64,000 bases of DNA from a virus. This document shows positions 179 to 59,916 of this stretch, piece after piece. The DNA lies in the IMG/VR virus record IMGVR_UViG_3300027573_000779, positions 1 through 64,000 of that record; one strand, written 5' to 3'. Each line of letters starts with the position of its first letter. Position 1 is the first letter of the stretch. Below the pieces are notes generated by a model. It ran no database searches and was not told where the DNA came from. It worked only from the letters and a program-made list of their open reading frames with translations. The position numbers were made by a program, and so were the translations under genes.

Positions 179-2848
179 TTATCTACTATTGTATGTAAGC
201 ATCGCTGGTGAAGAGTTTAACGTTTGATACTTGCTCCAAATTGTAATTGTATATTGCGTCTTTCTTGTAATTAAGTCAACATAACTGTATGAAGTACTAT
301 TAGCCGCTAGTGTCGCGTCTACTTCAAGAGTGGTTTTCCCTTTCACTTTAGAAACAATCCTCAAACGATAACCCTCCTCCCCTGTGGAATTGTCTGTCCA
401 ATTTATGAGCAAACCATTTCCAGTTCTTACTACTCTAAGGTTGGTCGGAGGATTTAATATAACCGTTGGCGCGTTAGTAACAGTTATTGTTGCGTCTAAA
501 CTAATCTTTACGCCACAGTTATTAGTAACTATAGCCTTGTAAACTCCCGCGTTAGTGCTATTAGCCGTGAAAGTATAGTCATCATCGCCTTGAGCAACTA
601 ACACATTATCTTTATACCATTCATAGGCTAACGGTGCGGTTCCAGTTGCACGAACGCTTAAAGTATTAGTAGTCCCAATCAACATTGTTGCAGATTGTGG
701 CTGCACCGTAATAACTGGCGCGTCACAAGGCGGAGGCGGAGGCGGAGGTTCTGAACCATCAAACACCGTGACATAAAACCACCCCTTAACATTGAAATAT
801 TTACCTTTAAAAGTTACATTGAATTCATAGGTGCCGGGATTAGTATAAGTAAAACTGCCATAAGGCACTGAAATAGACTTTAATAAACCTGTATCCAATG
901 GGTCGATAAATATCATTACCGGACCATAAGGTTCTACGCTCCCTGAAAAATCATAATTTAAAGTAAAAGGAGCAAACCCGGACTGTTGGTCTATCTTTAT
1001 ATCGATGTTCGGAGCAACCGTTGTAGAGTTTGTTTCGGCACCAAATCTGATATATTTATAGTCAGAATAAAATATCTCTTTTAAAGGAGTCTCAACTATA
1101 TGGTAACCAACAACACTTCTGTTAGTCTGTGTATTAAGATATCCGAGAGTATTGCGAGAACAATTAGTAATACTCTCAAACGTAAAATATGTCACACTTG
1201 CCACTCCTCCCAACACACCAATTATATGACTTACCCATAACTGTTGAGGAGCGCCTTCTGTAAGACAAAGCCCTATACGGGGTAACATTAACAGTGGGTT
1301 GGGGTCGGGAATAACAATAGTCTCCATTGTGAAAACACTGGGAGAAATCTCAGATTTGAAAATATTTATTCCTATTTTCTTTTGTGTAGCTCCTCCCTTG
1401 CCATCTAAAGCTGTAACTGTCACTCGGGCGACGAAATCTATAACATATTTTGGAGCAATAAAAGAAACAGAATTTAAAGTCGTTTGGAAAAAGTTATCAA
1501 TAGATGATATAACAACTCTAACAGGGTCTCCATTAGGGTCAGTTGCCGTAGCACTAATAGAAACGTTTTCTCCTGCCATTACATTTTGAGTAAATTGCAC
1601 GTTCAAAACAGGCGGATTATTCGGTTGCGGATTAAGTATAAACGGATTAATTAATGCCTTTCTAACATTAATTTTACCACCGGTTTGACTCTGTGTAGCT
1701 GGAGGGTCAGTTAAAATATCATAACTATCAGGATGTAAAATAGCATCCCGTAGTTGAGTCGCCGTTAGATTAGGATTAACTGACAAAATTAAAGCTGCAA
1801 GCCCCGCAACGTGAGGAGTAGCCATTGAAGTACCATTTAAAATTCTATATCCGTTAGTGTTTCCCAAGGACACACTATTGGTTGGCACGGTGCTTAAAAT
1901 ACCAACACCGGGGGCAGCAATATCTACATTAGCATAACCATAGTTTGAAAAGGACGCTTTTTTATTATTAATGTCAGTTGCCATAACAGTAATAACACTG
2001 TTATTTGTAGCTTCCGCTGGTGAGTAATTATTAACATCAATATTAGCAGAAGAATTTCCCGCAGCAACAATAGAAGTAACACCAGCGTCTTCTAATCTTT
2101 TAAATGCCTCAGACGTGGCACTATCTATAGCTGAACCACCGCCCCAAGAATTACTGGTCAACCGAAAATTAATTCCGCGAGTTTTCTTAAGTTCAATTAT
2201 CTTATCGTAAAGTAATATCGCGTCGCTTCGACTACCAGAACCACTTGAACCAAGAAATTTAAATCCAGCAATCTTTACCTTCCAATTAACTCCTACTACA
2301 CCAATTCCGTTGTCTCCAACCGCACCTATAGTTCCAGCGCAGTGCGTTCCATGTCCATGGTCATCAATAACTCCCTCAGTTAAAACTCCTAGCCTAGCTG
2401 TCCACCCGTGAGCACCCGTTATTGGGTCGGTCCAAACGTTTGCAACCAAATCAGGATGTTCTGTCCAAAGCCCAGTGTCTACTACAGCCACAATAATATC
2501 TTCTCCTCCTGTGCTAATATCCCAACCTAAAGGAGCTTCAATATTTGGCATCCCCCAAAGTTCGGAATAACGAGGGTCATTAGGGATTGCATCTAAAGTT
2601 ATTTCTTGGTCTGGCTCCAAGAATTCAAACTTGTCAGTTGCTAAAAGTCTTTCAATAACATCGGGATTATTAAACTCAAACCTATGAATATCAACATATT
2701 GTAAATGTTGAGATTTTCCATTATTTCCTTTAACAAGACCTTCTATCTCGTCTTTATCCTTGTTGTTTTTTAATTTACCCAACCAAACTTCGCCATTTAG
2801 ATTGAGCGCTAAAAAGAGAACTAATATACAGTTAAATACTTTTCTCAT
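179..2848 (-). CDS. Secreted subtilisin-like (S8) serine protease with Ig-like and FN3 tail
   Basis: 889 aa. A hydrophobic N-terminus (about residues 5-18) looks like a signal peptide. A peptidase S8 domain spans about 95-400 with the triad visible as Asp124 (VVDTG), His166 (HGHGTH) and Ser341 (GTSMATPH); the oxyanion Asn is at about 264 (AAGN). A short inhibitor-like region may lie at 25-90. After the protease come beta-rich domains, a poly-Pro linker (near 700), an Ig-like domain (about 705-790) and an FN3-like domain to the C-terminus. The modular tail resembles secreted proteins of PVC bacteria, suggesting capture from a host. It would act outside the cytoplasm on an unknown substrate. 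A run of 14 T residues follows the stop on the coding strand, without a clear hairpin. A promoter ends 9 nt before the ATG. Confidence 0.92.
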   Translation of the reverse strand: MRKVFNCILVLFLALNLNGEVWLGKLKNNKDKDEIEGLVKGNNGKSQHLQYVDIHRFEFNNPDVIERLLATDKFEFLEPDQEITLDAIPNDPRYSELWGMPNIEAPLGWDISTGGEDIIVAVVDTGLWTEHPDLVANVWTDPITGAHGWTARLGVLTEGVIDDHGHGTHCAGTIGAVGDNGIGVVGVNWKVKIAGFKFLGSSGSGSRSDAILLYDKIIELKKTRGINFRLTSNSWGGGSAIDSATSEAFKRLEDAGVTSIVAAGNSSANIDVNNYSPAEATNNSVITVMATDINNKKASFSNYGYANVDIAAPGVGILSTVPTNSVSLGNTNGYRILNGTSMATPHVAGLAALILSVNPNLTATQLRDAILHPDSYDILTDPPATQSQTGGKINVRKALINPFILNPQPNNPPVLNVQFTQNVMAGENVSISATATDPNGDPVRVVISSIDNFFQTTLNSVSFIAPKYVIDFVARVTVTALDGKGGATQKKIGINIFKSEISPSVFTMETIVIPDPNPLLMLPRIGLCLTEGAPQQLWVSHIIGVLGGVASVTYFTFESITNCSRNTLGYLNTQTNRSVVGYHIVETPLKEIFYSDYKYIRFGAETNSTTVAPNIDIKIDQQSGFAPFTLNYDFSGSVEPYGPVMIFIDPLDTGLLKSISVPYGSFTYTNPGTYEFNVTFKGKYFNVKGWFYVTVFDGSEPPPPPPPCDAPVITVQPQSATMLIGTTNTLSVRATGTAPLAYEWYKDNVLVAQGDDDYTFTANSTNAGVYKAIVTNNCGVKISLDATITVTNAPTVILNPPTNLRVVRTGNGLLINWTDNSTGEEGYRLRIVSKVKGKTTLEVDATLAANSTSYSYVDLITRKTQYTITIWSKYQTLNSSPAMLTYNSR

Positions 2849-14813: not shown

Positions 14814-15574
14814 CCAGTGATTTTAGAGCGCGAAGTTGAAAGATTTTGTAAAGCCTCCTGTTCAGAAAGCCCTTTTAATTTTTCATCAAGAACGTTTTTG
14901 CTCCCTTTTTTGTTCTTATCGTCATCCAATAAGGCTATTTCAAGGTCCGCAAACGATTGATTGAGTTTGATTTGAACACTTTCTAGGGCAGTTTCAATAC
15001 AAATCTTATCAAAAGTGTCCCCTTCAATTTCTCCTGCCGCTTCGTTCATAGCCGCCGCCGCACAAGCCATCTTCCATTTCTTTTCTGTGCGTTTGATTGT
15101 CTCCGCAAAGTCCTGAAGAGTTACTTGGGCATCCTGATACACCCCTTGCCGATGTTCAAGCAATTGTCTCATTTTGGCCAACCGTTCTTTATAAACATCA
15201 GCGTCTTCAAGCCCGTCCTTCACGTATTGTTTAACTTGGTCCGCAAAAGTTAAAACCTGTGCCGAAAACTTACTAATATTTTCTTTATATTGGGCGAGCG
15301 CGTCTTGTTTCTTTATATACTGATTTTGTAATGTTTCAACGGGGTTTTTAGCGGACTCAGCTTTTAAGGCTTTTATACGCCAGTTTGCCATCTTCATTGC
15401 AAAGTATGGCAGAAAATTGATAATTCCCCAAGATATCCCGCCAGCAACCAAAAGACCAAATAATCCTTGAATGCTTAAAAAAACAAATGGAGCTACAAAA
15501 ACTCCTAGCACCCCAAGACCAATTACCTTCACTAATAATTCTATCCGTTTTCGTTTTTGTTCTAGGTCAGTCAT
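14810..15574 (-). CDS. Membrane protein with long coiled coil, 254 aa
   Basis: Two adjacent hydrophobic segments (about 12-35 and 37-58) are followed by a long helical/coiled-coil region (about 65-215), with an Asp/Lys-rich tail. The design recalls PspA/ESCRT-III-like or phage-shock membrane organisers, but no diagnostic motif is present. Its ATG overlaps the stop of the MqsA-like gene by 4 nt, so the two are translationally coupled. Confidence 0.65.
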   Translation of the reverse strand: MTDLEQKRKRIELLVKVIGLGVLGVFVAPFVFLSIQGLFGLLVAGGISWGIINFLPYFAMKMANWRIKALKAESAKNPVETLQNQYIKKQDALAQYKENISKFSAQVLTFADQVKQYVKDGLEDADVYKERLAKMRQLLEHRQGVYQDAQVTLQDFAETIKRTEKKWKMACAAAAMNEAAGEIEGDTFDKICIETALESVQIKLNQSFADLEIALLDDDKNKKGSKNVLDEKLKGLSEQEALQNLSTSRSKITG

Positions 15575-15948
15575 ATGTTTTGTAAAGATTTATATTTAAG
15601 TCTAATCAGTTCATCTAACGCTTTGCTTTGAACAATGGTTCCAGTTTCCCATCTTTTAACGCTTGCTACGCCAACATGTAAAAAACGCGCAAATTCTATT
15701 TGGGATAAATCTAATGAATTTCGAATTGCCAAAATCTCTTTTCCTGTTAAGAGATTTTGTTTTAGTCTATAAGCATCTACCGTATTCTTTCTTAATTCGT
15801 CTGCTTGTTCAAAGGTCACAGTTTTATATCCACACATAGTACATTCTTCGGCAGACGTAACAACTTCAAACTTTTCCCCATGAAACTCTTGTAAAATTGG
15901 GGCCTTCACTGTTTTAAACTCAGTATTGTTACAATCTAAACATATCAT
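15571..15948 (-). CDS. MqsA/YgiT-type zinc-finger HTH regulator, 125 aa
   Basis: The N-terminal CxxC pairs (CLDC and CTMC, about residues 3-40) form a YgiT-type zinc finger; residues 67-115 form an HTH-XRE domain (LSQIEFARFLHVGVASVKRWETG). MqsA-family proteins are antitoxins or autoregulators. No MqsR-like toxin is beside it; instead it is coupled to a membrane coiled-coil gene. It starts 5 nt after the CCA end of a class II tRNA. Confidence 0.82.
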   Translation of the reverse strand: MICLDCNNTEFKTVKAPILQEFHGEKFEVVTSAEECTMCGYKTVTFEQADELRKNTVDAYRLKQNLLTGKEILAIRNSLDLSQIEFARFLHVGVASVKRWETGTIVQSKALDELIRLKYKSLQNI

Positions 15949-16251: not shown

Positions 16252-16497
16252 CTAAATTTTGGGTCTGCCGTAAACCGAAGGGCCTCCGGTGTCTTTTTGT
16301 TCAATTGCTAAAGACCCCTTGGAAACAAACTCTACTTGTTGTTCGTCAAAGAATTCAGCGCGAGCTAAAGTCCCGTCTTTTGCTAGTTTTTGTGGGGTAA
16401 TTCCAATATGAACACACCCATTAAGGTATTCTGTCCGACTGGAAAACACGCCCTTGAACCCGCTGATTTTATCCTTAACAATGTCACCTAGTTTCAT
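16252..16497 (-). CDS. Small conserved phage/bacterial protein, 81 aa
   Basis: Start placed at MKLGDIVKDKISGFKG, the usual beginning of this small family (GDIVKDKISGF, TEYLNGC, EFFDEQQVE). A longer frame adds 25 residues that repeat the GFKGVF motif and look non-coding. Likely a small beta-barrel protein; function unknown. Confidence 0.7.
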   Translation of the reverse strand: MKLGDIVKDKISGFKGVFSSRTEYLNGCVHIGITPQKLAKDGTLARAEFFDEQQVEFVSKGSLAIEQKDTGGPSVYGRPKI

Positions 16498-16589
16498 TTT
16501 GTTATTTGTTTTGTTTTTTTGTTTTGTCTGAAATTTACCCCAAAACACACCCTTAAAGCCCCGCATTTTCATTTGTTAGTTGTTTTTGC

Positions 16590-16830
16590 TCAAATTCGCC
16601 CCAAAAAAGCATAACAAGCCTTTTTGGGGGAAGACTCCTATTTACCTTACTCAACCCCTACTTCCGGCTCAGGGTCTTTCATCCGCCCTTCCCTGCTAGT
16701 CTTTCTATGTACGGGCAGAACACTAAGTATTTTAGTGAACTGTTGCGATACATCGCCTCACGGCTCGCTCCATCGTCATCCTACTCACACTCGGTAGAAG
16801 TATTTTCGTCGGATACTAGCAACCTCAATA
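16590..16830 (-). ncRNA. Possible structured leader/RNA upstream of the 81-aa gene
   Basis: About 240 bp without an ORF. The minus strand contains GCGAT-GT-ATCGC, CACTAA...TTAGTG and a CCCCCAAAAAGGC...GCTTTTTTGGGG hairpin near the downstream gene. Suggestive of RNA structure; no family recognised. Confidence 0.3.
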
Positions 16831-16835
16831 GGATA

Positions 16836-17033
16836 TCAAACTTGTTTGTTTAAATTTTTAATAATAGCTCGAACAAGTCTAGGTTCCGCACGAACATATT
16901 GACAAGCCAAACATTCACAGGTCCAATCTTTTTTCTTGTGAAAAGCGTCAATAACATGCATTGTGCCAAGTACGTCTAAACCTACGTTACGAACTTTAGA
17001 TAAAGCTAGTTCTTCTTGTTGTTCTGGTGTCAT
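16836..17033 (-). CDS. Hypothetical protein, 65 aa
   Basis: Start set at MTPEQQEELALSK, 6 nt after the CCA end of tRNA-Thr; the longer frame would run into the tRNA. It contains CECLAC, a possible metal-binding pair. Probably co-transcribed with the two upstream tRNAs. Confidence 0.55.
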   Translation of the reverse strand: MTPEQQEELALSKVRNVGLDVLGTMHVIDAFHKKKDWTCECLACQYVRAEPRLVRAIIKNLNKQV

Positions 17034-17039
17034 AAAAAA

Positions 17040-17115
17040 TGGAGCCAAAGATAGGATTTGCACCTACAAATGAGAATTCACAAAATTCTTCCTGTTCTAG
17101 TTGAGGCACTTCGGC
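17040..17115 (-). tRNA. tRNA-Thr (anticodon UGU)
   Basis: Acceptor GCCGAAG/CTTTGGC, D stem CCT/AGG, anticodon stem AGAAT/ATTCT with loop TTTGTGA (anticodon TGT), T stem GTAGG/CCTAT, loop TGCAAAT, discriminator T, encoded CCA. Confidence 0.9.
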
Positions 17116-17123
17116 AATAAAAC

Positions 17124-17199
17124 TGGAACGGTAGACAAGATTCGCACTTGCGTAAAGGTTGGTTGGAAGCCAACTGCCTGACTTCTAGGCTACTACCGC
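17124..17199 (-). tRNA. tRNA-Gly (anticodon UCC)
   Basis: Acceptor GCGGTAG/CTACCGT, D stem GCC/GGC, anticodon stem GTTGG/CCAAC with loop CTTCCAA (anticodon TCC), T stem GCAAG/CTTGT, discriminator T, encoded CCA. Eight nt upstream of tRNA-Thr. Confidence 0.92.
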
Positions 17200-17215
17200 A
17201 TTGAAAATTCAAAAA

Positions 17216-17299
17216 GGGGTCAGGATACCAATCTGCCTTATTTCATTCGACAGTGACCCTCAAGCTTTCTAAAGGGTCTTCCAACCGGAACCCTGACCC
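17216..17299 (-). ncRNA. Small three-way-junction RNA unit A
   Basis: On the minus strand, outer helix GGGTCAGG/CCTGACCC encloses two hairpins: GACCC-TTTAGAAAGCTTGA-GGGTC and CTGT-CGAATGAAATAAG-GCAG. Unit B next to it has the same plan and nearly identical loops but different helix sequences, that is, compensatory change. Family unknown; possibly a ligand-binding or protein-binding RNA, or the 3' end of the large RNA upstream. Confidence 0.7.
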
Positions 17300-17301
17300 G
17301 A

Positions 17302-17375
17302 AAAGGACATTAACTGTCTTATTTCATTCAACAGCACCCCTCAGTTTCCAAAGGGGTTCGTTACGAATGTCCTTT
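17302..17375 (-). ncRNA. Small three-way-junction RNA unit B
   Basis: Outer helix AAAGGACATT/AATGTCCTTT encloses CCCC-TTTGGAAACTGA-GGGG and CTGT-TGAATGAAATAAG-ACAG. It shares with unit A the loop motifs TTTnGAAA..YTGA and GAATGAAATAAG, while the outer helix differs completely. Two nt separate it from unit A. Confidence 0.7.
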
Positions 17376-17394
17376 AAAATTGAAGAGGGGCAAC

Positions 17395-18490
17395 CTAACG
17401 TCATCAGATAACCCCAATCACTAACGTTGCGTTAATGAGAAGTAAATTAAAACAACCTTGGGATTTCACGAGCGTTCCAATGTCTATCCAAGGTTTACTA
17501 AGTCTGAGACTACAACTTAGATTACTAGTCTTTCCGAAGATTATCAAGGCTTTGCGAGCCTCTTTCCTCCGTTATCCTCATAAACCCTTTAATGGCATCT
17601 ATGAACCTAGCATGGCTGCATTTTTACAGGTTGCATTTCCTGCTACCCATCACTCTACTCGATGTTCACTTTCTGTCTAGCTTGCGGCCAGTTAAGGATT
17701 ATTAGTCCAACATGCAGCGAAACAATCAACTAAATCACCCCTTGCGAGGGCAATCCAGTCTCCATTACCTTGCGGCAGGAGAATTAAGCCACTTTCGAGT
17801 GACAGAGGAAACGTCTTTGCTTTTTATATCATAGAACGATATGTTGGGATTACACCAACGCATCTAACAGCGACGTGCGTTTCCTGTCGTTTCATATCCT
17901 TTTGGGATACAAAATGCGACACGCCGCTTGCCTTTCATCTTGCAGACTACTCAACCAGATTACTCGACTTTGGATAACTTTTTAAGGGTTATCCATTACC
18001 GTTTAACCTTGCTATTAAGCCCTTGCTTGCATGGCTTGAACTTAATAACTCCTCTTTGTCCTTAGCTGTCGCTGTTTGGCATGATAATATATTAGATTGC
18101 GAGTCTAATACCCCTACTCACCGATTGGCTCTGTAGGTTTAACTATCCAGCTTCCAGTTACCTCACGTTATCGTAAGGTCTCAGGACTGAGTTTGCCTGA
18201 ATATCCCTTTGGAAAGGGCGCGAGGTTAGTTAGCACCTTCGCCTTTCGCCGTCTTGCGACGGGTTATTTAACGTGGTCAGGCCCACAAAATCTACAAATT
18301 AAAATACCTAAGTTCAGGTCGCTCAATATACGGTATGACCGATTGAAACAGTTAGCTATGCTGCTCCAAGTTGCCGGAATGACCCGATTTTATGCCCTCA
18401 ACGCTTAGGTAAATGGTCCCTCTGGCCGTGGTTGCAACGGCACTGTCAAGCTTTTAAGGCTCGCGTCTCCTGCTCTTGGACTACAGAGGG
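17395..18490 (-). ncRNA. Large (~1.1 kb) structured non-coding RNA
   Basis: No plausible ORF on either strand, but dense hairpins whose loops make sense only on the minus strand: CCGTC-GCAA-GACGG (18249-18262), TGCC-GCAA-GGTA (17766-17777), ATTAGA-CTCGCAA-TCTAAT (18091-18109), CCT.ACG-ATAA-CGT.AGG (18161-18178), CACT-CGAA-AGTG (17790-17801), TATCC-CAAAA-GGATA (17895-17909), a 7-bp GGATAAC helix (17972-17994), CCCTTT-CC-AAAGGG (18205-18218), CCCT-CGCA-AGGG (17739-17750). Flanked by tRNA genes in a phage. Size, GNRA richness and context match the 'giant ornate' RNA classes such as GOLLD and ROOL, which are known in phages near tRNAs; I cannot confirm membership. Ends are approximate. Confidence 0.75.
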
Positions 18491-18495
18491 TAAAA

Positions 18496-18570
18496 TGGTG
18501 CGGAAAGGGAGAAGTCGCACTCCCACCTTAAACTTGGCAAGTTCACGTTCTACTACTAAACTACTTCCGC
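18496..18570 (-). tRNA. tRNA-Gly (anticodon GCC)
   Basis: Acceptor GCGGAAG/TTTCCGC, D stem GTT/AAC, anticodon stem TGAAC/GTTTA with loop TTGCCAA (anticodon GCC), T stem GGGAG/CTCCC with an 8-nt loop (one nt more than usual), discriminator A, encoded CCA. Its 5' end overlaps the last 10 nt of the HNH gene; it sits directly upstream of the large RNA. Confidence 0.87.
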
Positions 18571-19100
18571 ATTTTTAAGGCTTGTCTCGCATTTTTAATC
18601 TCTTCTTCAAAATTTTTAATCTCTTCTTCTAAATCCTCAAACTCTTGATGTGCTAAGATATGACATTTCCTGCAAAGAGTCTTTAAATCTTTAACGGTTG
18701 TATCGTAAAGGTTCCTATAAACCAAATGGTGGGGTTCAACCCTAGAAGGAGACCCGCATTTTTCACAAACCGGATTGAGCTTTAACTTCTCTCTTCTCAA
18801 AGCGAACCAATGTTCCGATTTCAGATACTCGGTTCTATAGTATTCCCTTTTATCATTAACGGGATGTTCCCCACGGATTGGGGTATCGTGATAAACGCCC
18901 AGTGAGCGAGGAATCTTAAACTTAGATTTCAGCCTTCTGTTTATCTTCTTGTTGAAGATTCTCATCCCTTCCCAATCAAACCCTCTCTTCTTTTTTCGTT
19001 TTATAACGCCTTTAGGTAACATAAAGTAATGGGATTTTTTCCCTACCTCCGTTGGTAGCACCAATGTCTCCATTGATACCGGCGTCTCCGAACTTCCCAC
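18561..19100 (-). CDS. HNH endonuclease-like protein, 179 aa
   Basis: The C-terminal half (about 105-160) has an HNH core with zinc Cys pairs: CEKCG, then EPHHLVYRN, then LCRKCHILAHQ. The N-terminus is basic and may bind nucleic acid; the tail is a Glu/Lys-rich helix. The first start is a GTG at 19100; Met10 is an alternative. HNH genes are often mobile in phages; this one lies next to tRNA-Gly and the large RNA, so it may be a homing-type nuclease linked to that RNA locus. The stop TAG lies inside the tRNA gene. Confidence 0.82.
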   Translation of the reverse strand: MGSSETPVSMETLVLPTEVGKKSHYFMLPKGVIKRKKKRGFDWEGMRIFNKKINRRLKSKFKIPRSLGVYHDTPIRGEHPVNDKREYYRTEYLKSEHWFALRREKLKLNPVCEKCGSPSRVEPHHLVYRNLYDTTVKDLKTLCRKCHILAHQEFEDLEEEIKNFEEEIKNARQALKMRK

Positions 19101-19170: not shown

Positions 19171-19198
19171 ATGCTATCAAAACTTTTTCAAATGTCAA
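19171..19198 (-). promoter_or_regulatory. Promoter upstream of the HNH gene, tRNA-Gly and large RNA (16-bp spacer class)
   Basis: TTGACA (19193-19198), spacer TTTGAAAAAGTTTTGA (16 bp, extended -10 TG), TAGCAT (19171-19176). It lies directly downstream of a terminator hairpin, so it probably starts the transcription unit running leftwards through the HNH gene and RNA region. Confidence 0.82.
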
Positions 19199-19900: not shown

Positions 19901-21241
19901 TTATGCTGCAACCATCTCTTTTTTCAAGTTTAAAAAAGACATCTTATCGTTTGCCATTTCCCCATAAGATTTAATACCTATAGGGACATTTAACATATCA
20001 GTAAGAATATTAGGAATTGCTTCCCCTTCTACTTTTTCCGATTCACAATTAACTTTACCGAGAGTTTTACCTAGTTCTTCCTGATTAACTAAAAATGACA
20101 TATGGGGTTTTTTAAGTTCCCAAAGTTTTCCATTTAAATTATAGCCAGTGTTAATATACCATGGATTGATTTCATTAATTCTATCACAATGAGAAACCGC
20201 CAAATAATCTACCCCACCGTTAACTTCTAGGGCATATTTTAAAAGGGGAATATCTAACATGCCCGTTCTAAATCTTCCTTGCCATGGACCAGTTGTATTA
20301 GCTGTGTCTTGTAAATTCCAAGGCATTTCAGTTGGAAAAGGTCCTGCGCCGTGTCTGGTGGCATAAATTCTAGTTACACCAATCTCAACAATGTTAGATT
20401 CTAATAACCCCAAGCCAGCTTCATTTAAAACCTTATATACGTTTTCTGTGGTTGTATTACTCCAAGTTGTGTGGGGGTGAAAACCCCATTTTTCATCTAG
20501 TAATATGCCTTGAGCGCCCTCAAAAACAGGATTATTGGAACCTTTTAGCAATTCTGAAACCTGTTGAGCGTCTATGATGTTAATTTTTTTGCTTAATTCC
20601 TGATATTCTTTAGCTATACGGTCAGTAAAACGCAAATCTCTGAAAAACTTAGCATGAGAACCTATAAAATTATAGAAATCAACCCCTTCCCTGTCTAGGC
20701 GCGAAATCATCGCCCTAAAGGTAAGCCAAAGCTTTTCATGGGTAATATCATAATTCTTAAGGTCTTTAACCCGTAAAACATTATCTCTCTTTAAACTGTC
20801 TAAAACTGTTTCTCCAATCCCCACTCCACACGAGCCATGACGATTATTGTTTCTACTCTCTTCTAACATCCTGTTAGCCGCAACATGAAATGGGGTAGTA
20901 ACCAAAGCTCGTTCATCTACATAAATTGATTCAAAGTTTCCCCCTTTGCGCCAAGTATTTGCACTTAAAACCTCTTCTTCTTTTATTAAGGATAAGGGGT
21001 TAAATAAAACGTGCTTAGTGAGTAATGTTTTAACGTTCCGATTGACTAAAGTTCCACTGCCAAACTGAGCAAAAACGTGAGAGTCGCCACTTGAAGTAAC
21101 AACTCTGTGGGCACATTGAGCGCCGCCATTATATCTGATAACTAAATCAGAATTGTTTTGACGGACAAGAAAGTCAACAACACTTCCTTTTGTTTCGTCG
21201 CCGTGTTGCAGACCCACAACTATGAAAACATTTTTGTCCAT
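19901..21241 (-). CDS. Adenylosuccinate synthetase-like protein, 446 aa
   Basis: The start is taken at MDKNVFIVVG because the in-frame extension upstream crosses an intrinsic terminator. Signatures of the PurA GTPase fold: GLQHGDETKGSVVD (P-loop region, Asp about residue 15), RYNGGAQCAHRVV (His of the GH[TN]xV motif), GHTTWSNTT-like and TRHGAGPFPTEM near 300. PurA joins IMP and aspartate to adenylosuccinate. The phage PurZ variant that makes diaminopurine precursors has lost the catalytic Asp, which is retained here. So it is a divergent PurA-like enzyme of uncertain substrate. No purine-pathway partner is seen nearby. Confidence 0.8.
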   Translation of the reverse strand: MDKNVFIVVGLQHGDETKGSVVDFLVRQNNSDLVIRYNGGAQCAHRVVTSSGDSHVFAQFGSGTLVNRNVKTLLTKHVLFNPLSLIKEEEVLSANTWRKGGNFESIYVDERALVTTPFHVAANRMLEESRNNNRHGSCGVGIGETVLDSLKRDNVLRVKDLKNYDITHEKLWLTFRAMISRLDREGVDFYNFIGSHAKFFRDLRFTDRIAKEYQELSKKINIIDAQQVSELLKGSNNPVFEGAQGILLDEKWGFHPHTTWSNTTTENVYKVLNEAGLGLLESNIVEIGVTRIYATRHGAGPFPTEMPWNLQDTANTTGPWQGRFRTGMLDIPLLKYALEVNGGVDYLAVSHCDRINEINPWYINTGYNLNGKLWELKKPHMSFLVNQEELGKTLGKVNCESEKVEGEAIPNILTDMLNVPIGIKSYGEMANDKMSFLNLKKEMVAA

Positions 21242-21248
21242 AAATTTG

Positions 21249-21290
21249 AAAAAAAGGGAGAGGAAAGGCAACCATAACCATTCCTCTCCC
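21249..21290 (-). terminator. Intrinsic terminator after the vWA gene
   Basis: Minus strand GGGAGAGGAA/TTCCTCTCCC, a perfect 10-bp stem (21256-21290 including a 15-nt loop), followed by seven T. Ends the kinase/vWA operon and shows that the PurA-like gene cannot start upstream of 21248. Confidence 0.9.
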
Positions 21291-21310
21291 GGTGTGCGAA
21301 CCCGAACCAA

Positions 21311-40572: not shown

Positions 40573-43500
40573 ATGACAAAAACTTTAACTCAGGACGCTA
40601 CCTCTATTAATTTTGAACAGGAAATTTCAAACTATATTTTTGTTAGTCGTTACAGTAGATTTAATGAAAAGTTAGGGAGAAGAGAAACATGGGATGAGGC
40701 AGTTAGTAGGTTGGAAACCATGCACTTAAAGAAATTTAATTATCTTTCAAAGGAGGATAAGGATGAAATTAAGTGGGCGTTTGATATGGTTAGAGCAAAA
40801 CGGGTCGTTCCTTCGATGCGAAGTTTACAGTTCGGAGGCAAAGCAATTGAAGCTCATCAAGCTAGAATTTTCAACTGTAGTGTTCGGCATGTAGATTCTA
40901 TTCGTTCTTTTGCTGAGATAATGTATCTTTTGCTTTGTGGATGCGGGGTAGGTATTGGAGTAAGCAGGTTTTTTCTTCGTCGCTTGCCTGATTTGGTAGA
41001 TGCTAAAGATAAAACTGGAACAGTTGTCACTTATAGTATTGAGGATAGTATGGAGGGGTGGGCTGATTCAGTTGAAGCTCTTTTGATGTGTTATTTTAAG
41101 AATACTCCCTATACAGGTAGGAAGATTTGTTTTGATTATTCTAAAATTAGAAAAAAAGGAACGCCTCTTAAGACTGGAGGAGGTAAAGCTCCGGGTTACA
41201 AAGGCTTAAAAAACACTCATCTGAAAATTAAAGCTCTTCTTGACCATATTATTGAAAATAAAAAACAACTTCGACTTAAATCTATTGATGCTTATGATAT
41301 TTTAATGCATTGTGCCGACGCCGTTCTTTCAGGGGGAATTAGACGCTCAGCTACTTCGGTTATTTTTGATGAAGACGACGAAGATATGATGAATGCTAAA
41401 ACCTCATTTAAAGTAACTAAAAAAAGTGGGTTTGAAGAAGATGGGACCTCTGTTGTTGGTGGAAAGACCTATCAGTTATACAACGGCAAAGTTACTGTTG
41501 ATGGCCTAACCTATTATGTCACTTTGAAAGAATATGAATACGAACAGCTTAAGAAAAGCGGAACAATTAGCTGGATGCATATTCAACCCCAAAGAGCAAG
41601 GTCTAACAATAGCATTTTACTTCTAAGGGATAAAATAACGTATGAGAAGTTCAATGAGATGGTACAAAGAACCCGTCAATGGGGAGAACCGGGATTTGTA
41701 TTTGCTAATCATCCTTGGACCCTACTGAACCCCTGTTTTGAGATAGGGTTTATTCCTATTACCGACGATGGAGTTTGCGGCACCCAGTTTTGTAACCTCA
41801 CTTCTATCAACGGGAAAAAGATTACCTCTTTTCAAGACTTTAAAGAATGTGGCAAGGCAGCTTCATTAATAGGAACACTCCAAGCGGCTTATACTTACTT
41901 CTCTTATCTTTCACAAGCAGCACAGGAAGTAAGCGAGCAAGAAAGTTTATTGGGCGTAAGCCTAACAGGATGGATGGATTCTCCGTCCGTTCTCTTAAAT
42001 GAGGAAAATCAAAGAAAGGTAAGTTCTCTCGTGGTAGAAACAAACAGGATTTGGGCTAAGAAAATTGGCGTAAATCAGGCAGCAAGAACAACATGCGTAA
42101 AACCCGAGGGTTGCGTTTCAGCCGATACTTTAATTTTATCTAATGAAGGTATTTTATATTTAGATGAGGTTGGGGATATTAATGGTAAAGAATGGCAAAA
42201 TCATCAAATAAATATTAGTTCTGCGTTAGATATTAAAGCATCAGATAAATTTTTTGTTAATGGACGCAAAAACGTATTAAAAATTAAATTTAACAGTGGA
42301 TTTGAATTTACTGGAACCCTCAATCATAAAGTTCAAGTTGTCAATAGTCACGGAATAGAATGGAAACAGCTTGATAATTTACAAAAAGGGGATGCTGTTG
42401 TTTACAGAATTGGTGGATACGATAGTGCTTTTGGGTCTTATCAAAAGCTCAAGAAGCCCTCATTTGTATTACATAAAAACTCTCATAACACACAAGAAAT
42501 AATATGCCCCCCTATCTTAGACGAAGAACTTGCTTGGTTCCTCGGTCTTTATTTAGGAGACGGTTCGAATCACGAGAAAGGGATACGTATTTCAGGCAAC
42601 CGAAAAGATGTGTCAGATTTAGATAAAGCGAATAAGATAGTTAATAAATATTTTGGCATATCTTTTACTACTAGTAATTATCAAAAAGATGAATTAGATA
42701 ATAGAATTCAATATTATTTCAATTCAATACAATTGCTTAAGTTTTTGGAAGAGAATGGCCTTTTGAAACCTAAATCTCAAGACATTGAAATCCCTAAGAT
42801 TGTTCGTCAGTCTCCTAAATCTGTAATTGAATTTTATTTAGATGGGTATGCAGCAGCAGATGGATGTGATGAGAGTCGAACTAGGAGTTACCATACTGTT
42901 TCTGAGAAGATGGCAAAGCAACTACCAATAGTTTTAAGAGCTATAGGAAAAGATTGTAAAGTTCGCAAATATAAGCCTTCCAAAGGGTCGTTCGGCACAA
43001 ATGAAAAATATTGGATACAAGAACGAAAGAGCTTAAATGGTAATATAAACAGGAATAGCCGTTTAGATAAAAAAATATACAATATATTAAAGGCAAGCGG
43101 CTACAGTAGCCATTTATATGATGTGGTTGACAATGTTGTTTATGGGGCGAATGAGCCAACCTATGATATTTCGGTTCCAGACGAACATGCCTATATTGCT
43201 AATAGCTTTGTTTCCCACAACACATCATCTTTAGTCCTAGGCACTGCCTCAGGCATTCACCCACATCATTCTAGAAGATATTTCAGAAGAGTTCAATGTA
43301 ACACAGAAGACAATGTGTATAGACACTTTAAAAAGACCAATCCCAAACTTTGTGAGCCTTCAGTATGGTCCGCCAATAAAACAGACGATGTAATTACTTT
43401 TCCAGTCACGGTTTCTGATGAAGCAATGGTTAAAAGTGACCTTTCTGCTATTGAACATTTGGAAATTATCAAATCTGTTCAAAAAAATTGGGTAATTAAC

Positions 43501-43827
43501 GGAACAACCGAAGCAAACAAGAAGGATTTGACTCATAATGTCTCATGCACCGTTATCGTTAAAGATGACGAGTGGGACAAGGTAATCGATTATCTTTATC
43601 TAAACAGAGAGTATTTTGCTGCCGTTTCTCTTTTGCCAGAAACTGGAGATAAAGACTTTCCTCAAGCTCCAATGGAGGCCGTTATAACTCCAGAAGATGA
43701 AGAACATTGGGAGGAAATTATTAGTAATTTTAAGTCCGTAGATTATACCAAACTTAAAGAAGAAGAAGATAATACTGCCCTTTCCCAAGAAGGCTCTTGT
43801 TATGGTGGAGCCTGTCAAATAATATAG
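40573..43827 (+). CDS. nrdJ: Class II (B12-dependent) ribonucleotide reductase with intein
   Basis: 1084 aa; about 714 aa after removal of an intein (residues 514-883). Extein motifs: FGGKAIEAHQARIFNCSV, NPCFEIGF (glutamate/cysteine active-site loop), CGTQFCNLTSINGK, a TxVKPEG...TSSLVLGTASGIHPHH junction, and the C-terminal redox pair ...GSCYGGACQII. Reads as the monomeric RTPR type that reduces NTPs or NDPs with adenosylcobalamin; host cobalamin would be required. A GGAGAT-like sequence lies about 27 nt upstream, but no clear promoter is visible. Confidence 0.93.
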   Translation: MTKTLTQDATSINFEQEISNYIFVSRYSRFNEKLGRRETWDEAVSRLETMHLKKFNYLSKEDKDEIKWAFDMVRAKRVVPSMRSLQFGGKAIEAHQARIFNCSVRHVDSIRSFAEIMYLLLCGCGVGIGVSRFFLRRLPDLVDAKDKTGTVVTYSIEDSMEGWADSVEALLMCYFKNTPYTGRKICFDYSKIRKKGTPLKTGGGKAPGYKGLKNTHLKIKALLDHIIENKKQLRLKSIDAYDILMHCADAVLSGGIRRSATSVIFDEDDEDMMNAKTSFKVTKKSGFEEDGTSVVGGKTYQLYNGKVTVDGLTYYVTLKEYEYEQLKKSGTISWMHIQPQRARSNNSILLLRDKITYEKFNEMVQRTRQWGEPGFVFANHPWTLLNPCFEIGFIPITDDGVCGTQFCNLTSINGKKITSFQDFKECGKAASLIGTLQAAYTYFSYLSQAAQEVSEQESLLGVSLTGWMDSPSVLLNEENQRKVSSLVVETNRIWAKKIGVNQAARTTCVKPEGCVSADTLILSNEGILYLDEVGDINGKEWQNHQINISSALDIKASDKFFVNGRKNVLKIKFNSGFEFTGTLNHKVQVVNSHGIEWKQLDNLQKGDAVVYRIGGYDSAFGSYQKLKKPSFVLHKNSHNTQEIICPPILDEELAWFLGLYLGDGSNHEKGIRISGNRKDVSDLDKANKIVNKYFGISFTTSNYQKDELDNRIQYYFNSIQLLKFLEENGLLKPKSQDIEIPKIVRQSPKSVIEFYLDGYAAADGCDESRTRSYHTVSEKMAKQLPIVLRAIGKDCKVRKYKPSKGSFGTNEKYWIQERKSLNGNINRNSRLDKKIYNILKASGYSSHLYDVVDNVVYGANEPTYDISVPDEHAYIANSFVSHNTSSLVLGTASGIHPHHSRRYFRRVQCNTEDNVYRHFKKTNPKLCEPSVWSANKTDDVITFPVTVSDEAMVKSDLSAIEHLEIIKSVQKNWVINGTTEANKKDLTHNVSCTVIVKDDEWDKVIDYLYLNREYFAAVSLLPETGDKDFPQAPMEAVITPEDEEHWEEIISNFKSVDYTKLKEEEDNTALSQEGSCYGGACQII
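42112..43221 (+). other. Intein with LAGLIDADG (DOD) homing endonuclease domain
   Basis: Begins with Cys514 (CVSADTLILS) after KPEG and ends VSHN before Thr (+1). N-terminal splicing block with TGTLNHKVQV (block B His), DOD motifs LGLYLGDGS and LDGYAAADG, and C-terminal blocks F/G (VPDEHAYIANSFVSHN). 370 aa, so splicing and endonuclease appear intact. Inserted in the conserved TVKPEG-TxS site of the reductase, next to the nucleotide-binding loop. Confidence 0.93.
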
Positions 43828-47351: not shown

Positions 47352-48132
47352 AATTGGAGTTACCGCAATTGGTTATAATTGCAACGAACATTTAGCGGCT
47401 GTTCTAAAACCTTGGATGGAACTAAAAGAAGCCTGTCTTTTTGGTAATTTAATTAAGTCTGTTCATATAGCATTTACTCATGGATGCTTTACTGAAACTG
47501 CGCAACTGGGCTATCCAATAATATCCACAGATGGGACTATAGAATACTTAAAAGCTCTTCATGAACTTGGTGATAGTGGAATTGATTTTTTAGACATTAA
47601 AGAAACTCCGCAGCTTGAATATGAGATGTGGACCAATAATTTACCTTATCTCTTTAGTAAAGACATTGATTTGTTGGTAATGCTTAACGCGGACGAACTA
47701 TGGGAGATTAATGAAATTATTAAAGCTGTAACCTACATTAAAGAAACAGAATTCATTGATTATTTTAAAGTTAATTTTAAAAACTATTGTATCGATTATA
47801 ATCATTATGTTTCAGACTTCATAGTCCCCCGTATTTGGTGGGCTAAAAAGAATGGAGGGATTAAAAGGTTTTATCGAGATGACCTGCTTGAATATAATAA
47901 CGGAAAAAGAGATGTGGAGGTTTCCCATAAGGTTATTTCCCCTAATATTATTTTCCCCAAACATTATTCTTGGGTAGGGTCAAAAGAATACCTTCAGCGC
48001 AAATTAGGATTTCAAAAGCTCCGTTATGGCAACTGTTCTTATGCTTGGGATGAAGTTAATGACAGGCTTATGCTGAATGAAGAGTTTTATAAAACTACCG
48101 GATTACCTAAACCAGAGATTTTAAGCGTATGA
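47344..48132 (+). CDS. Glycosyltransferase-like protein (GT-A type), 262 aa
   Basis: DLLVMLNADELWE (about 117-129) resembles a DxD-type metal site; YRIAFTHG-like and W-rich C-terminus (YAWDEVNDR) as in GT2/GT92-like proteins. Acceptor unknown. 8-nt overlap with the epimerase gene. Confidence 0.6.
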   Translation: MIKIGVTAIGYNCNEHLAAVLKPWMELKEACLFGNLIKSVHIAFTHGCFTETAQLGYPIISTDGTIEYLKALHELGDSGIDFLDIKETPQLEYEMWTNNLPYLFSKDIDLLVMLNADELWEINEIIKAVTYIKETEFIDYFKVNFKNYCIDYNHYVSDFIVPRIWWAKKNGGIKRFYRDDLLEYNNGKRDVEVSHKVISPNIIFPKHYSWVGSKEYLQRKLGFQKLRYGNCSYAWDEVNDRLMLNEEFYKTTGLPKPEILSV

Positions 48133-49373
48133 GTTATACAACAATAACCAAGTGCCGACTTTGTAAATCAACATCTTTAGATAAAATGTTGGATTTTGGC
48201 GAAGTTCCATTGGCAAATGACTATCCAGAAAAGATAGATTCACCGGTTGAAGCCTATCCCCTTACAGTTTCAAAATGTAAAGGGTGTGGACACGTTCAAC
48301 TAAATGAAACAGTGTCGCCGGAAAGGTTGTTTTCTAATTATACTTATGCCAGTTCAGATTCACCAGCCCTAGTTAAGCATTTTACCGAATATGCAAACAC
48401 GGTAACAAGTAAATTTCGTTTGGGTGATTACTCTCAGATACTAGAATTGGGAATGAATGATGGTGTGCTGCTTGACCAATTTCAGAAGTTGGGACTACTA
48501 CAGCTATTTGGCGTTGACCCCGCTAAAAACATTTGCGAGCTAGCGCAAGAAAAATTAGGGTTTCCAACTAAGATTATAAACGATTTCTTTAATGAGGAAA
48601 CGGCTCTTAAGATGCGAAAACAACATGGGATGTTTGATATTATTTGTGCTAACAACGTCTTTGCTCATGTGGCTGATTTAGATAGTTTTACTAGCGGGGT
48701 GAAAATTTTATTGAGCAAAAATGGGACGTTTATATTTGAAAACGCTTATTTATTTGATACAATAAACAATCTTTATTTGGACCAATTTTATTCAGAACAC
48801 CTACAATATTATGGCATTCTTCCTCTTGTTCAATATTTAGATAAGTTTAAGTTAAAAATCTTTGATATCCAACACGTTAACACTCAAGGAGGTTCTTTTA
48901 GGATATTTGCTTCTCACAAGGACGATACACGAACAGAGCCTATAGTTCAACAATGGATAGACGAAGAGTTGCAGTTTGGTCTCTATAATGAGGACACTTA
49001 TAAAGATTTTAAATTTAGTTTAAATGACCTTCAAGAATCCATGAAAAATACTATGGATTGGATGAAGGAGAACAATTATACTGTTTCTTGTTATGGGTGC
49101 CCTGCAAAATTTGCACTTTTAAGTAAGTTTTTTAACTTTAATCGGGACAATATTCGGTATGTCGTTGACGATTCACCTTTAAAATATGGGAGGTTTTCTC
49201 AGGGTGCGAAAATTCCCATTGTTAATAACCAACATTTTAAAGCCAACCCAACTGATTATACTATCATTTCTACTTGGAATATGGCGGCATCGATTATGGA
49301 ACGAAACCCTAGTTACAACGGGACATGGATAGTTCCTTTACCTGAAATTAAATTTTATGGACCAAAATCCTAA
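48129..49373 (+). CDS. Sugar C-methyltransferase (zinc-binding N-domain), 414 aa
   Basis: N-terminal zinc motif CRLCKS...CKGCGH (Methyltransf_13), central SAM domain LELGMNDGVLLDQF (motif I, about 100-115), C-terminal CYGCPAKFALLS...IVDDSPLKYG-type domain (Methyltransf_14). The three-domain layout is that of NovU/TcaB9-type enzymes that methylate carbon 3 of keto-deoxysugars. Points to a branched deoxysugar product. Confidence 0.88.
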   Translation: MSYTTITKCRLCKSTSLDKMLDFGEVPLANDYPEKIDSPVEAYPLTVSKCKGCGHVQLNETVSPERLFSNYTYASSDSPALVKHFTEYANTVTSKFRLGDYSQILELGMNDGVLLDQFQKLGLLQLFGVDPAKNICELAQEKLGFPTKIINDFFNEETALKMRKQHGMFDIICANNVFAHVADLDSFTSGVKILLSKNGTFIFENAYLFDTINNLYLDQFYSEHLQYYGILPLVQYLDKFKLKIFDIQHVNTQGGSFRIFASHKDDTRTEPIVQQWIDEELQFGLYNEDTYKDFKFSLNDLQESMKNTMDWMKENNYTVSCYGCPAKFALLSKFFNFNRDNIRYVVDDSPLKYGRFSQGAKIPIVNNQHFKANPTDYTIISTWNMAASIMERNPSYNGTWIVPLPEIKFYGPKS

Positions 49374-57694: not shown

Positions 57695-58709
57695 TGACGA
57701 TGAGCGCCAGTATACAGACCCAACGTATGCTGTCAACCATGGTCCATTTTCAGAAATATCTATACAGTTAAATAAAGCTTTAAAGAAACTAGACGCTTTT
57801 GCGCCGCCAAACTTAGCTGATTGGGTTGGATATAATACAAGTTTAAATTTAAAATTCCAATATCCAAACAAACAAAGTTTTATTATTACAGTGTGGGAGT
57901 GTAGCGCTATTCCTAATCTTTTAGTCTCAATGGCTAGAGATACAAGAATTTTTGGTCTTTCTCAACAAATAACCGAACTTTGGGATAAATACGGAATTAA
58001 TGCCCCTACTGTTTATCCCGGCTGTGATACAGATTTTTGGAAGCCGGTTTGTGAAAAAAACCCCACTTTTACTTTTCTTCATATCAATAGTTCAAACGTC
58101 CGTTCGGGGTTAGATTTAACAATTCAGGCTTTTCATAAGGTGTTTAAAAATTACCCTTATGTTCAATTAGTTATTAAAGACACCAACGATTCTCCACAGC
58201 TTTGCAATAAGATTCGAAAATACATAGATGAAGGCTCACAAATTTTTTACTATTCAAAAAGAATCAGTTATGAGGAAATTCGAAGGCTATACTCTTCTTC
58301 TCACGTTTGTCTAAATCTCTTAAGAAGCACTTCATTTGGCTTACCCCTTCTTGAATGTTCAGCTTGCGGTTGTCTTTGTGTTACAGGAGATACCAAACCC
58401 ACCAATGAAATTATAAAACCAGAATATGGAGTTTTAGTGCCGCCATCTGACGAAGTGGGGCTTGAAGGAATGGCGTCTTATTTAAGTCAGGAGTGGGGTC
58501 TTAGGAACTGCTATCCTGCGCTTCAATACAATGAAACTCCTAAGTTTTGGGACTTTAGTGTTGAAGAATACGCTAAAACATTGGAAAAAATATACTCCAA
58601 TTGGGATACTACTTACAGCAAAATAGACACCAGAACACCCATAGTTGAAAATTGGACTTGGGAAAAAAGCGCAAAAACTTTAATAAATCTTTTAGAAAAT
58701 GGAATATAG
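57675..58709 (+). CDS. GT4-type glycosyltransferase, 344 aa
   Basis: PTVYPGCDTDFWKPV (about 112-126), FLHINSSNVRSGLDLTIQAF, and SHVCLNLLRSTSFGLPLLECSACGCLCV (donor site). Clear GT4 plan. Confidence 0.82.
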   Translation: MKIHMFDDDERQYTDPTYAVNHGPFSEISIQLNKALKKLDAFAPPNLADWVGYNTSLNLKFQYPNKQSFIITVWECSAIPNLLVSMARDTRIFGLSQQITELWDKYGINAPTVYPGCDTDFWKPVCEKNPTFTFLHINSSNVRSGLDLTIQAFHKVFKNYPYVQLVIKDTNDSPQLCNKIRKYIDEGSQIFYYSKRISYEEIRRLYSSSHVCLNLLRSTSFGLPLLECSACGCLCVTGDTKPTNEIIKPEYGVLVPPSDEVGLEGMASYLSQEWGLRNCYPALQYNETPKFWDFSVEEYAKTLEKIYSNWDTTYSKIDTRTPIVENWTWEKSAKTLINLLENGI

Positions 58710-59916
58710 TTGGCCTTTAAATACACCACAATTCAGCTTACTAGACAAACTTAAAATAGCGAAGTTCGTTTTAACTGATTCTCGTTGGACACAAGGAAAG
58801 AAAGTTCAGGAATTTGAACAAAAAATGGCAGAATATGTAGGTTCACGTTATGCTATTTTTACTTCAAGCGGCTCTACTGCTAACACTTTGTTAGCAATGT
58901 ATTTAAGAGACCATTGTTCGCCAGAAAGAAACATAGTTGTTTTTCCTTCAACTACTTGGATTACTTCAGTTTCGCCTTTTATCCGAGAGGGGTTTACTCC
59001 TCGTTTTATTGATATCAATCTTGTTAATTTTTCAATGAATTTGACAGAACTGGAAGAATATTTAAAAAAGAACTCTTCTAAAGTGGCCTGTATTTTTATT
59101 ACGTCATTAATTGGGTTTGTGCCTAATATCCAAACCATTAAGGCAATGGCCAAACATTATAATGTAACAGTAATGATGGATAATTGTGAAAATACTTTAG
59201 GGTCTTTTGAAAACAAAAATGTTTCTTCCTTTTTTACTTCAACAACCAGTACATATTTTGGGCACCAATTACAAAGTGTTGAGGGCGGGTTTGTATTTAC
59301 TAACTCTCTAGAACAACATGATTACTTTTTAATGGCAAGGAATCACGGAATGGTGCGGAGTCTTCCAGAATGGCGACAAAAATTTTATACTAATGGAGAA
59401 GTAGATTCGCGCTTTGATTTCAAAATTTTAGGCAACAATTTTAGAAACTCGGACCTTAATGCCTATATTGGTTTACTTGATTTTGCTCGATTGGAAGAAT
59501 ACTCGCAAAAACGAAAATATCTTTATGAAACTTTTGTAAGTAATTCAAGTGAAAAGCTTTTAATTATGCCTTTTGATTTGTTTTCGTGCAAACATGTTCC
59601 TTTTTGCCTACCTGTTATTTTAAGTCCTAAAGCTACCAAATATGTCGATTTACTTCCTGAATTGGTTGTGGAACTTAAAAAGGCATGTGAAGAAACTGAA
59701 ATCGAAACAAGGCCAATAATATCAGGAAACCTGCTCCGACAAACGTGTTTTAAACAATTTGGTTTTAAACCTAAAGATTTTCCTATAAGCGAATACGTTC
59801 ACAAAAACGGTTTTTATGTTGGTCTTTATGCAAATTTGGAGCCTGAGAGAGTTAGGAATTTTGCTATTAAAGTAAGAACGTATTTAGAGCAACAATTAGG
59901 TATAGCAGAGAGTTAA
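58699..59916 (+). CDS. DegT/DnrJ-fold dehydratase, ColD/RfbH-like, 405 aa
   Basis: DegT/DnrJ/EryC1 PLP fold: FTSSGSTANTLLAM (about 54-67), FPSTTWITSVSP, MDNCENTLGSF (PLP-binding Asp about 161). At the usual PLP-lysine position the sequence reads TYFGHQLQSVEGG, so His189 replaces the lysine. That substitution marks the 3-dehydratases ColD (published His188) and RfbH/E1, which remove the 3-OH of 4-keto-6-deoxysugars. The next gene is a GDP-mannose 4,6-dehydratase, the enzyme preceding ColD in GDP-colitose synthesis. Confidence 0.82.
   Translation: MEYSWPLNTPQFSLLDKLKIAKFVLTDSRWTQGKKVQEFEQKMAEYVGSRYAIFTSSGSTANTLLAMYLRDHCSPERNIVVFPSTTWITSVSPFIREGFTPRFIDINLVNFSMNLTELEEYLKKNSSKVACIFITSLIGFVPNIQTIKAMAKHYNVTVMMDNCENTLGSFENKNVSSFFTSTTSTYFGHQLQSVEGGFVFTNSLEQHDYFLMARNHGMVRSLPEWRQKFYTNGEVDSRFDFKILGNNFRNSDLNAYIGLLDFARLEEYSQKRKYLYETFVSNSSEKLLIMPFDLFSCKHVPFCLPVILSPKATKYVDLLPELVVELKKACEETEIETRPIISGNLLRQTCFKQFGFKPKDFPISEYVHKNGFYVGLYANLEPERVRNFAIKVRTYLEQQLGIAES

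Follow-up and report, generated by a model that had tools for sequence, protein, structure and literature searches.

The hairpin-rich, gene-less stretch between tRNA genes of this virus is, as judged from its sequence, a new and divergent member of the known GOLLD family of RNAs. The window, i.e. the whole stretch of DNA analysed (64,000 nucleotides), forms the beginning of a virus record with a length of 208,933 bases (209 kb; IMG/VR), in which this is the sole GOLLD. It very probably gives rise to a GOLLD RNA of about 0.9–1.0 kb from a leftward tRNA operon of a large phage, and formation of a cage is assumed by homology. The unexpected part is a hairpin which, according to the sequences compared, is common to GOLLD and to CCA-ended tRNA-like RNAs.

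GOLLD had been the leading guess of the first-pass annotation, and the Rfam cmscan proposed there confirmed it. The match to RF02032 on the minus strand covers the complete model (positions 1–416 of 416; Table 1); the gathering score of this model, which represents the GOLLD 3' domain only, is 150 bits. With 194 bits the score is lower than typical, as complete GOLLDs of the main group reach 294–326 bits. No Rfam match to rRNA, group I or II introns, ROOL, HEARO, OLE or RNase P was obtained in 16400–18700 at E values up to 1, and only GOLLD and tRNAs were found there. The RNA resembles ROOL, which is likewise a large, cage-forming phage RNA near tRNAs (PMC12286853), but differs from it by the lack of this match. 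A new class of large RNA, which had been considered as an alternative, is not needed for the RNA itself.

A 40-base pattern from the conserved GOLLD 3' end retrieved 51 viral contigs. The sources of 11 of these were scanned with Rfam; nine showed at least the GOLLD gathering score (top 326 bits), and the other two contain too little of the RNA. Most relatives form one main group with an alignable 5' domain. Outside this group are the window RNA together with the loci L038/L060, L065, L090/L091 and L092 (clade-specific pattern), and L103. These IMG/VR loci are the nearest relatives by sequence; an Rfam match to GOLLD was obtained for each of L038, L065, L090, L091, L092 and L103, and L060 is nearly identical to L038 in the GOLLD region. 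Among named phages, blastn matched nothing but a piece of 59 bases in Streptococcus phage vB_Sags-UPM1, with no gene annotated beneath it and a tRNA-Ser downstream. The GOLLD 3' motif was not found in prokaryote genomes, and a search for close relatives via the neighbouring adenylosuccinate synthetase gave no match in viral contigs. In common with the GOLLD env-38 14-mer nanocage (RF02032; PMC12286853) are the full-length 3' domain with its linker, a probable 5' domain upstream, the presumed pairing of L20 with J13/15 and the phage tRNA setting. The window RNA differs by a very divergent 5' domain, UA in the presumed loop L21a, a linker without tRNA and an extra conserved 3' hairpin, which was not seen behind the main-group GOLLDs fetched.

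Table 1. Positions of the RNA features and of the related cloverleaf RNAs. Positions refer to the window unless a locus is given.
Feature	Position	Strand	Remarks
tRNA-Gly(GCC)	18496–18570	-	upstream neighbour; ARAGORN, Rfam 55.9 bits
tRNA-Leu(UAA), CCA end encoded	18414–18490	-	ARAGORN, Rfam 40.5 bits; missed by the first-pass annotation
5' terminal hairpin domain	18304–18412	-	closed by UACCUAAG (18404–18411) / CUUAGGUA (18305–18312); MFE fold
GOLLD 5' domain, first part	18153–18298	-	covariance model R1, 14.8 bits, E 0.057 in 135 kb
GOLLD 5' domain, second part	17998–18090	-	covariance model R2, 17.5 bits, E 0.19 in 135 kb
GOLLD 3' domain, full RF02032 length	17501–17929	-	cmscan 194.3 bits, E 3e-53
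Linker in the Rfam-modelled part, after its first hairpin	17826–17859	-	two hairpins
J13/15-like strand AAAAAGCAAAG	17815–17825	-	one side of presumed intermolecular kissing contact B7; naming inferred from PMC12286853
L20 hairpin CCCU-CGCAA-GGGG	17738–17750	-	other side of presumed B7
L21a hairpin, UA in loop	17696–17708	-	presumed self-kissing contact B8; inferred mapping
L21b hairpin, CGCAA loop	17677–17691	-	presumed self-kissing contact B9; inferred mapping
3' appended hairpin module	17442–17498	-	core 17454–17495; outside the Rfam model
First three-way-junction element	17299–17375	-	fold z -3.2
Second three-way-junction element	17212–17300	-	fold z -4.2
tRNA-Gly(UCC)	17124–17199	-	downstream neighbour; ARAGORN, Rfam
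tRNA, probably Thr(UGU)	17043–17115	-	Rfam 43.7 bits; anticodon loop read by eye; no ARAGORN call
Cloverleaf RNAs	L091:9576–9699; L093:2664–2776; L097:1125–1248; L102:2815–2928; L105:12130–12243		
Cloverleaf RNAs	L101:4964–5085; L108:4524–4650	-	

A location near tRNA genes in phages has been described for GOLLD before (PMC12286853), and here, too, tRNA genes were detected on both flanks in a virus record (ARAGORN, Rfam). The interval initially proposed for the RNA (17395–18490) is a gene-less, hairpin-rich stretch for the most part, but its upstream end (18414–18490) is tRNA-Leu(UAA), so that one tRNA had been included. Likewise, tRNA-Gly(UCC) was correctly placed on the downstream side, but the direct upstream neighbour is tRNA-Leu and not tRNA-Gly(GCC). 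The large RNA begins at about position 18412 beside this tRNA-Leu. Its first helix lies 2 nt past the CCA end of the tRNA, and this points to a release in the course of tRNA processing. A promoter-like site at 19198–19171 (minus strand) directly follows a terminator-like hairpin, with promoter-like sites being no commoner here than in shuffled sequences. An HNH endonuclease-like ORF (18561–19100, minus strand) overlaps tRNA-Gly(GCC) with its 3' end.

The 5' half was compared with two covariance models of our own (R1 and R2), each of which was built for one piece of the 5' domain on the basis of 22 main-group GOLLDs. The R1 match outranks every place outside the model's own sequences, and neither R1 nor R2 has a further match in the window; taken singly, both are weak (Table 1). 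Chance is an unlikely explanation, because both occur within the 0.5 kb where they are expected, out of 64 kb in the window, and agree with GOLLD in strand and order. A profile search of genomes with R1 gave no match, though cmsearch gives the same place with 14.8 bits. The terminal region upstream of R1 is variable across GOLLD. With moderate confidence, the sequence of the 5' half is interpreted as a diverged GOLLD 5' domain extending to about position 18412. The most serious rival is a new class of large phage RNA which borrowed just the GOLLD 3' domain, while its unrelated 5' domain forms no cage cap. It would agree with the lack of an Rfam model for the 5' half, with its weak similarity to other GOLLD 5' domains and with the observation that blastn matched only the 3' domain region in L038. 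We consider it improbable in view of the joint placement of R1 and R2. Furthermore, the relative L038 contains a 19-nt piece (CUGAGGGUAACACUGUAAG) closely fitting the 5'-domain model, and it is known that the 5' domains diverge among GOLLDs (PMC12286853).

The 3' domain includes the putative contacts between subunits. In the solved GOLLD 14-mer, contact B7 is formed between L20 and the J13/15 of a different chain, and B8 and B9 are self-pairings of L21a and L21b, respectively (PMC12286853). The corresponding elements were tentatively located by counting residues and with the help of the loop features given in PMC12286853. The dinucleotides assigned to J13/15 and L20 were complementary in all of 40 distinct GOLLD 3' domains (GG/CC in 29, GC/GC in nine including the window RNA, CG/CG in two); in 20,000 shuffles, which ignore the relatedness of the sequences, complementarity was observed on average in 23.2 and at most in 33 of 40. 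If this mapping is correct, the kissing pair joining neighbouring subunits is most likely kept in the window RNA. According to the same residue counting, the L21b loop keeps GC, whereas L21a has UA where GC or CG occurs elsewhere. Both are compatible with a symmetric loop contact, because UA and GC are self-complementary. Together with B7, the loop sequences are compatible with three cage contacts. The minus-strand hairpins which had been reported to carry GNRA-like loops do exist, but several of these loops, L20 and L21b included, are five-base CGCAA loops. L20 and L21b are not ordinary GNRA tetraloops, because their GC dinucleotide matches the GOLLD kissing-contact loops.

The linker of the window RNA is free of tRNA, whereas a tRNA is present in the GOLLD linkers of L038, L092, L103 and L090/L091, as has been reported for other GOLLDs (PMC12286853). 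In L038 and L092 it is a tRNA-Thr(UGU). The linker tRNA of L090 (128–203) and L091 (2321–2396) has an odd anticodon loop, for which ARAGORN gave an undetermined type with the two-base anticodon 'gt'. The first linker hairpin in the window (GUUGG-UGUAAUC-CCAAC, 17843–17859, minus strand) has the shape and size of a tRNA T arm and could be a remnant of a linker tRNA.

Conserved structure runs on past the Rfam 3' end at 17501 to about 17442. In the alignment with L038, the positions 17488–17461 just beyond this end are strongly conserved. They contain the motif GAUAGAC-AUU-GGAAC-GCUC-GUGAAAUC (17462–17488, minus strand), in which GAUAGAC and GUGAAAUC form an internal loop and GGAAC the apical loop; the outer helix varies among the phages yet pairs. 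The module occurs 3' of GOLLD in the window, L038/L060, L090/L091/L107 and L103, i.e. in three lineages besides the window; it does not follow GOLLD in the main group, in L092 or in L065. In the GOLLD-attached copies alone, the outer helix is paired in 19/20 cells, a value reached by 849 of 20,000 shuffles. The hairpin was not found in prokaryote genomes, and the GOLLD-attached copy is the only one of the module in the 209-kb record.

The region folds more stably than expected by chance, and it does so mainly on the minus strand. For 17447–18413, the minus strand reached -295.7 kcal/mol in comparison to -261.0 (sd 7.6) for dinucleotide shuffles (z -4.6), and the plus strand a z of -2.4; if both halves were folded separately, z was -5.3 and -4.1. 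This strong minus-strand folding speaks against a decayed, functionless GOLLD remnant, as do the full-length RF02032 match, the retained kissing-loop partners and the 3' hairpin helix, which differs from that of the relatives but still pairs. The low RF02032 score, the altered L21a loop and the absence from the linker of the tRNA found in the nearest relatives would fit such decay, which nevertheless appears very unlikely. A frameshifted or unrecognised protein gene, for which nothing beyond short ORFs speaks, is practically refuted by the strong match to the GOLLD family: the description of the stretch as gene-less and rich in minus-strand hairpins was borne out, and the ORFs inside 17395–18410 have at most 81 amino acids, the longest lying on the strand opposite to the RNA.

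The motif of the 3' hairpin is also present apart from GOLLD. A second copy was detected in L091 (position 9642), and a gapped motif pattern yielded 25 viral loci, most of them with tRNA genes in the fetched stretch. The matches in L110 and L111 look like chance and were discarded. In L091, L093, L094/L104, L097/L098/L112/L113, L101, L102, L105 and L108/L109 the motif lies within a cloverleaf of 113–127 nt, which was obtained by unconstrained folding in all of these loci. The order is a 7-bp acceptor, 2 nt, a D-like arm, an anticodon-like arm, a short spacer, a long third arm bearing the motif, and N-CCA. In L106, the motif is apparently located in the first arm instead of the third.

Some 7-bp stem with NCCA is found around a random place with a chance of 16% (486/3000); the evidence is therefore the repeated identical topology together with the co-changing helices. 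All cells were paired in the acceptor (42/42, six different 5' strands; reached by 26 of 20,000 shuffles), in the anticodon-like arm (28/28; 46 of 20,000) and in the outer helix of the module (32/32, eight different strands; one of 20,000), while variation in the D-like arm is insufficient for a conclusion (3286 of 20,000). The shuffle numbers, including that for the GOLLD-attached copies, overstate the support for the helices, because the use of folds to define the strands is biased towards pairing. The cloverleaf RNAs had no match in Rfam and no blastn match in named phages, and a full-text literature search found no paper on them. They are candidates for a so far undescribed class of RNAs which, to judge from the loci collected, is located mostly in phage tRNA clusters.

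Downstream of the module, two three-way-junction elements occur in tandem. The two copies are related: 97.5% of cells pair between them, with five two-sided changes. Slid controls reached at most 55%, and the observed value was reached by 13 of 500 shuffles. With a model of this element, just the two copies were found in the 209-kb record and nothing convincing in 37 sources; it is absent from the GOLLD relatives searched. Exact matches of the junction core in viral contigs (31) were taken as chance, as none had the flanking stem, and the three loci retrieved with a looser pattern all lack the full fold.

Several protein genes of the window were also annotated. The product of 19901–21310 (minus strand) is a phage-type adenylosuccinate synthetase (PHROG 1211, 2-aminooxy adenylosuccinate synthetase) with about 37% identity to PurA-like proteins of mycobacteriophages, and may be connected with purine modification in the phage DNA. 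A ribonucleotide reductase (40573–43827, plus strand) belongs to the B12-dependent class II according to Pfam; its sequence is interrupted by an intein, which contains a LAGLIDADG-like domain. A C-methyltransferase and a DegT/DnrJ/EryC1 aminotransferase (48129–49373 and 58699–59916, plus strand) lie within a long run of plus-strand genes, which looks like phage-carried nucleotide-sugar synthesis. Further products are a subtilase-family protease of 889 amino acids with an immunoglobulin-like domain (179–2848, minus strand) and an MqsA-like antitoxin or HTH regulator (15571–15948, minus strand; Pfam PF15731).

With regard to the GOLLD RNA, leftward transcription would occur as part of the phage tRNA operon, and its 5' end would be released immediately behind the tRNA-Leu CCA when the flanking tRNAs are processed. 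The RNA is then expected to fold into the divergent 5' domain (about 18412–17998) and the conserved 3' domain (17929–17501) with its short variable linker, followed by the extra hairpin module. If it behaves like the homologous GOLLD of solved structure, many copies would assemble into a hollow RNA cage during infection via kissing loops and A-minor contacts. Other GOLLD RNAs exhibited a cage structure, an increase of expression at lysis and ribosome pull-down (PMC12286853). It might be speculated that the cage most likely holds or presents a cargo tied to translation, for example phage tRNAs or ribosomes.

Natural RNAs that are known to form cages on their own are few, and GOLLD is one of them. 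With the copy in the window, the family gains a divergent lineage, the relatives of which retain a tRNA in the cage-facing linker; the copy also provides natural covariation for the contacts between subunits. It is conceivable, if somewhat doubtful, that the hairpin is a portable module which tags GOLLD cages and cloverleaf RNAs for one shared partner. If this is true, the RNA cage and the tRNA-like molecules would be connected by a common binder, for example the ribosome or a protein of the phage or the host, and the shared module would point to the cargo or the partner of GOLLD. The shared hairpin is a concrete lead, as a factor recognising it may bind the CCA-ended tRNA-like RNAs in other phages, too.
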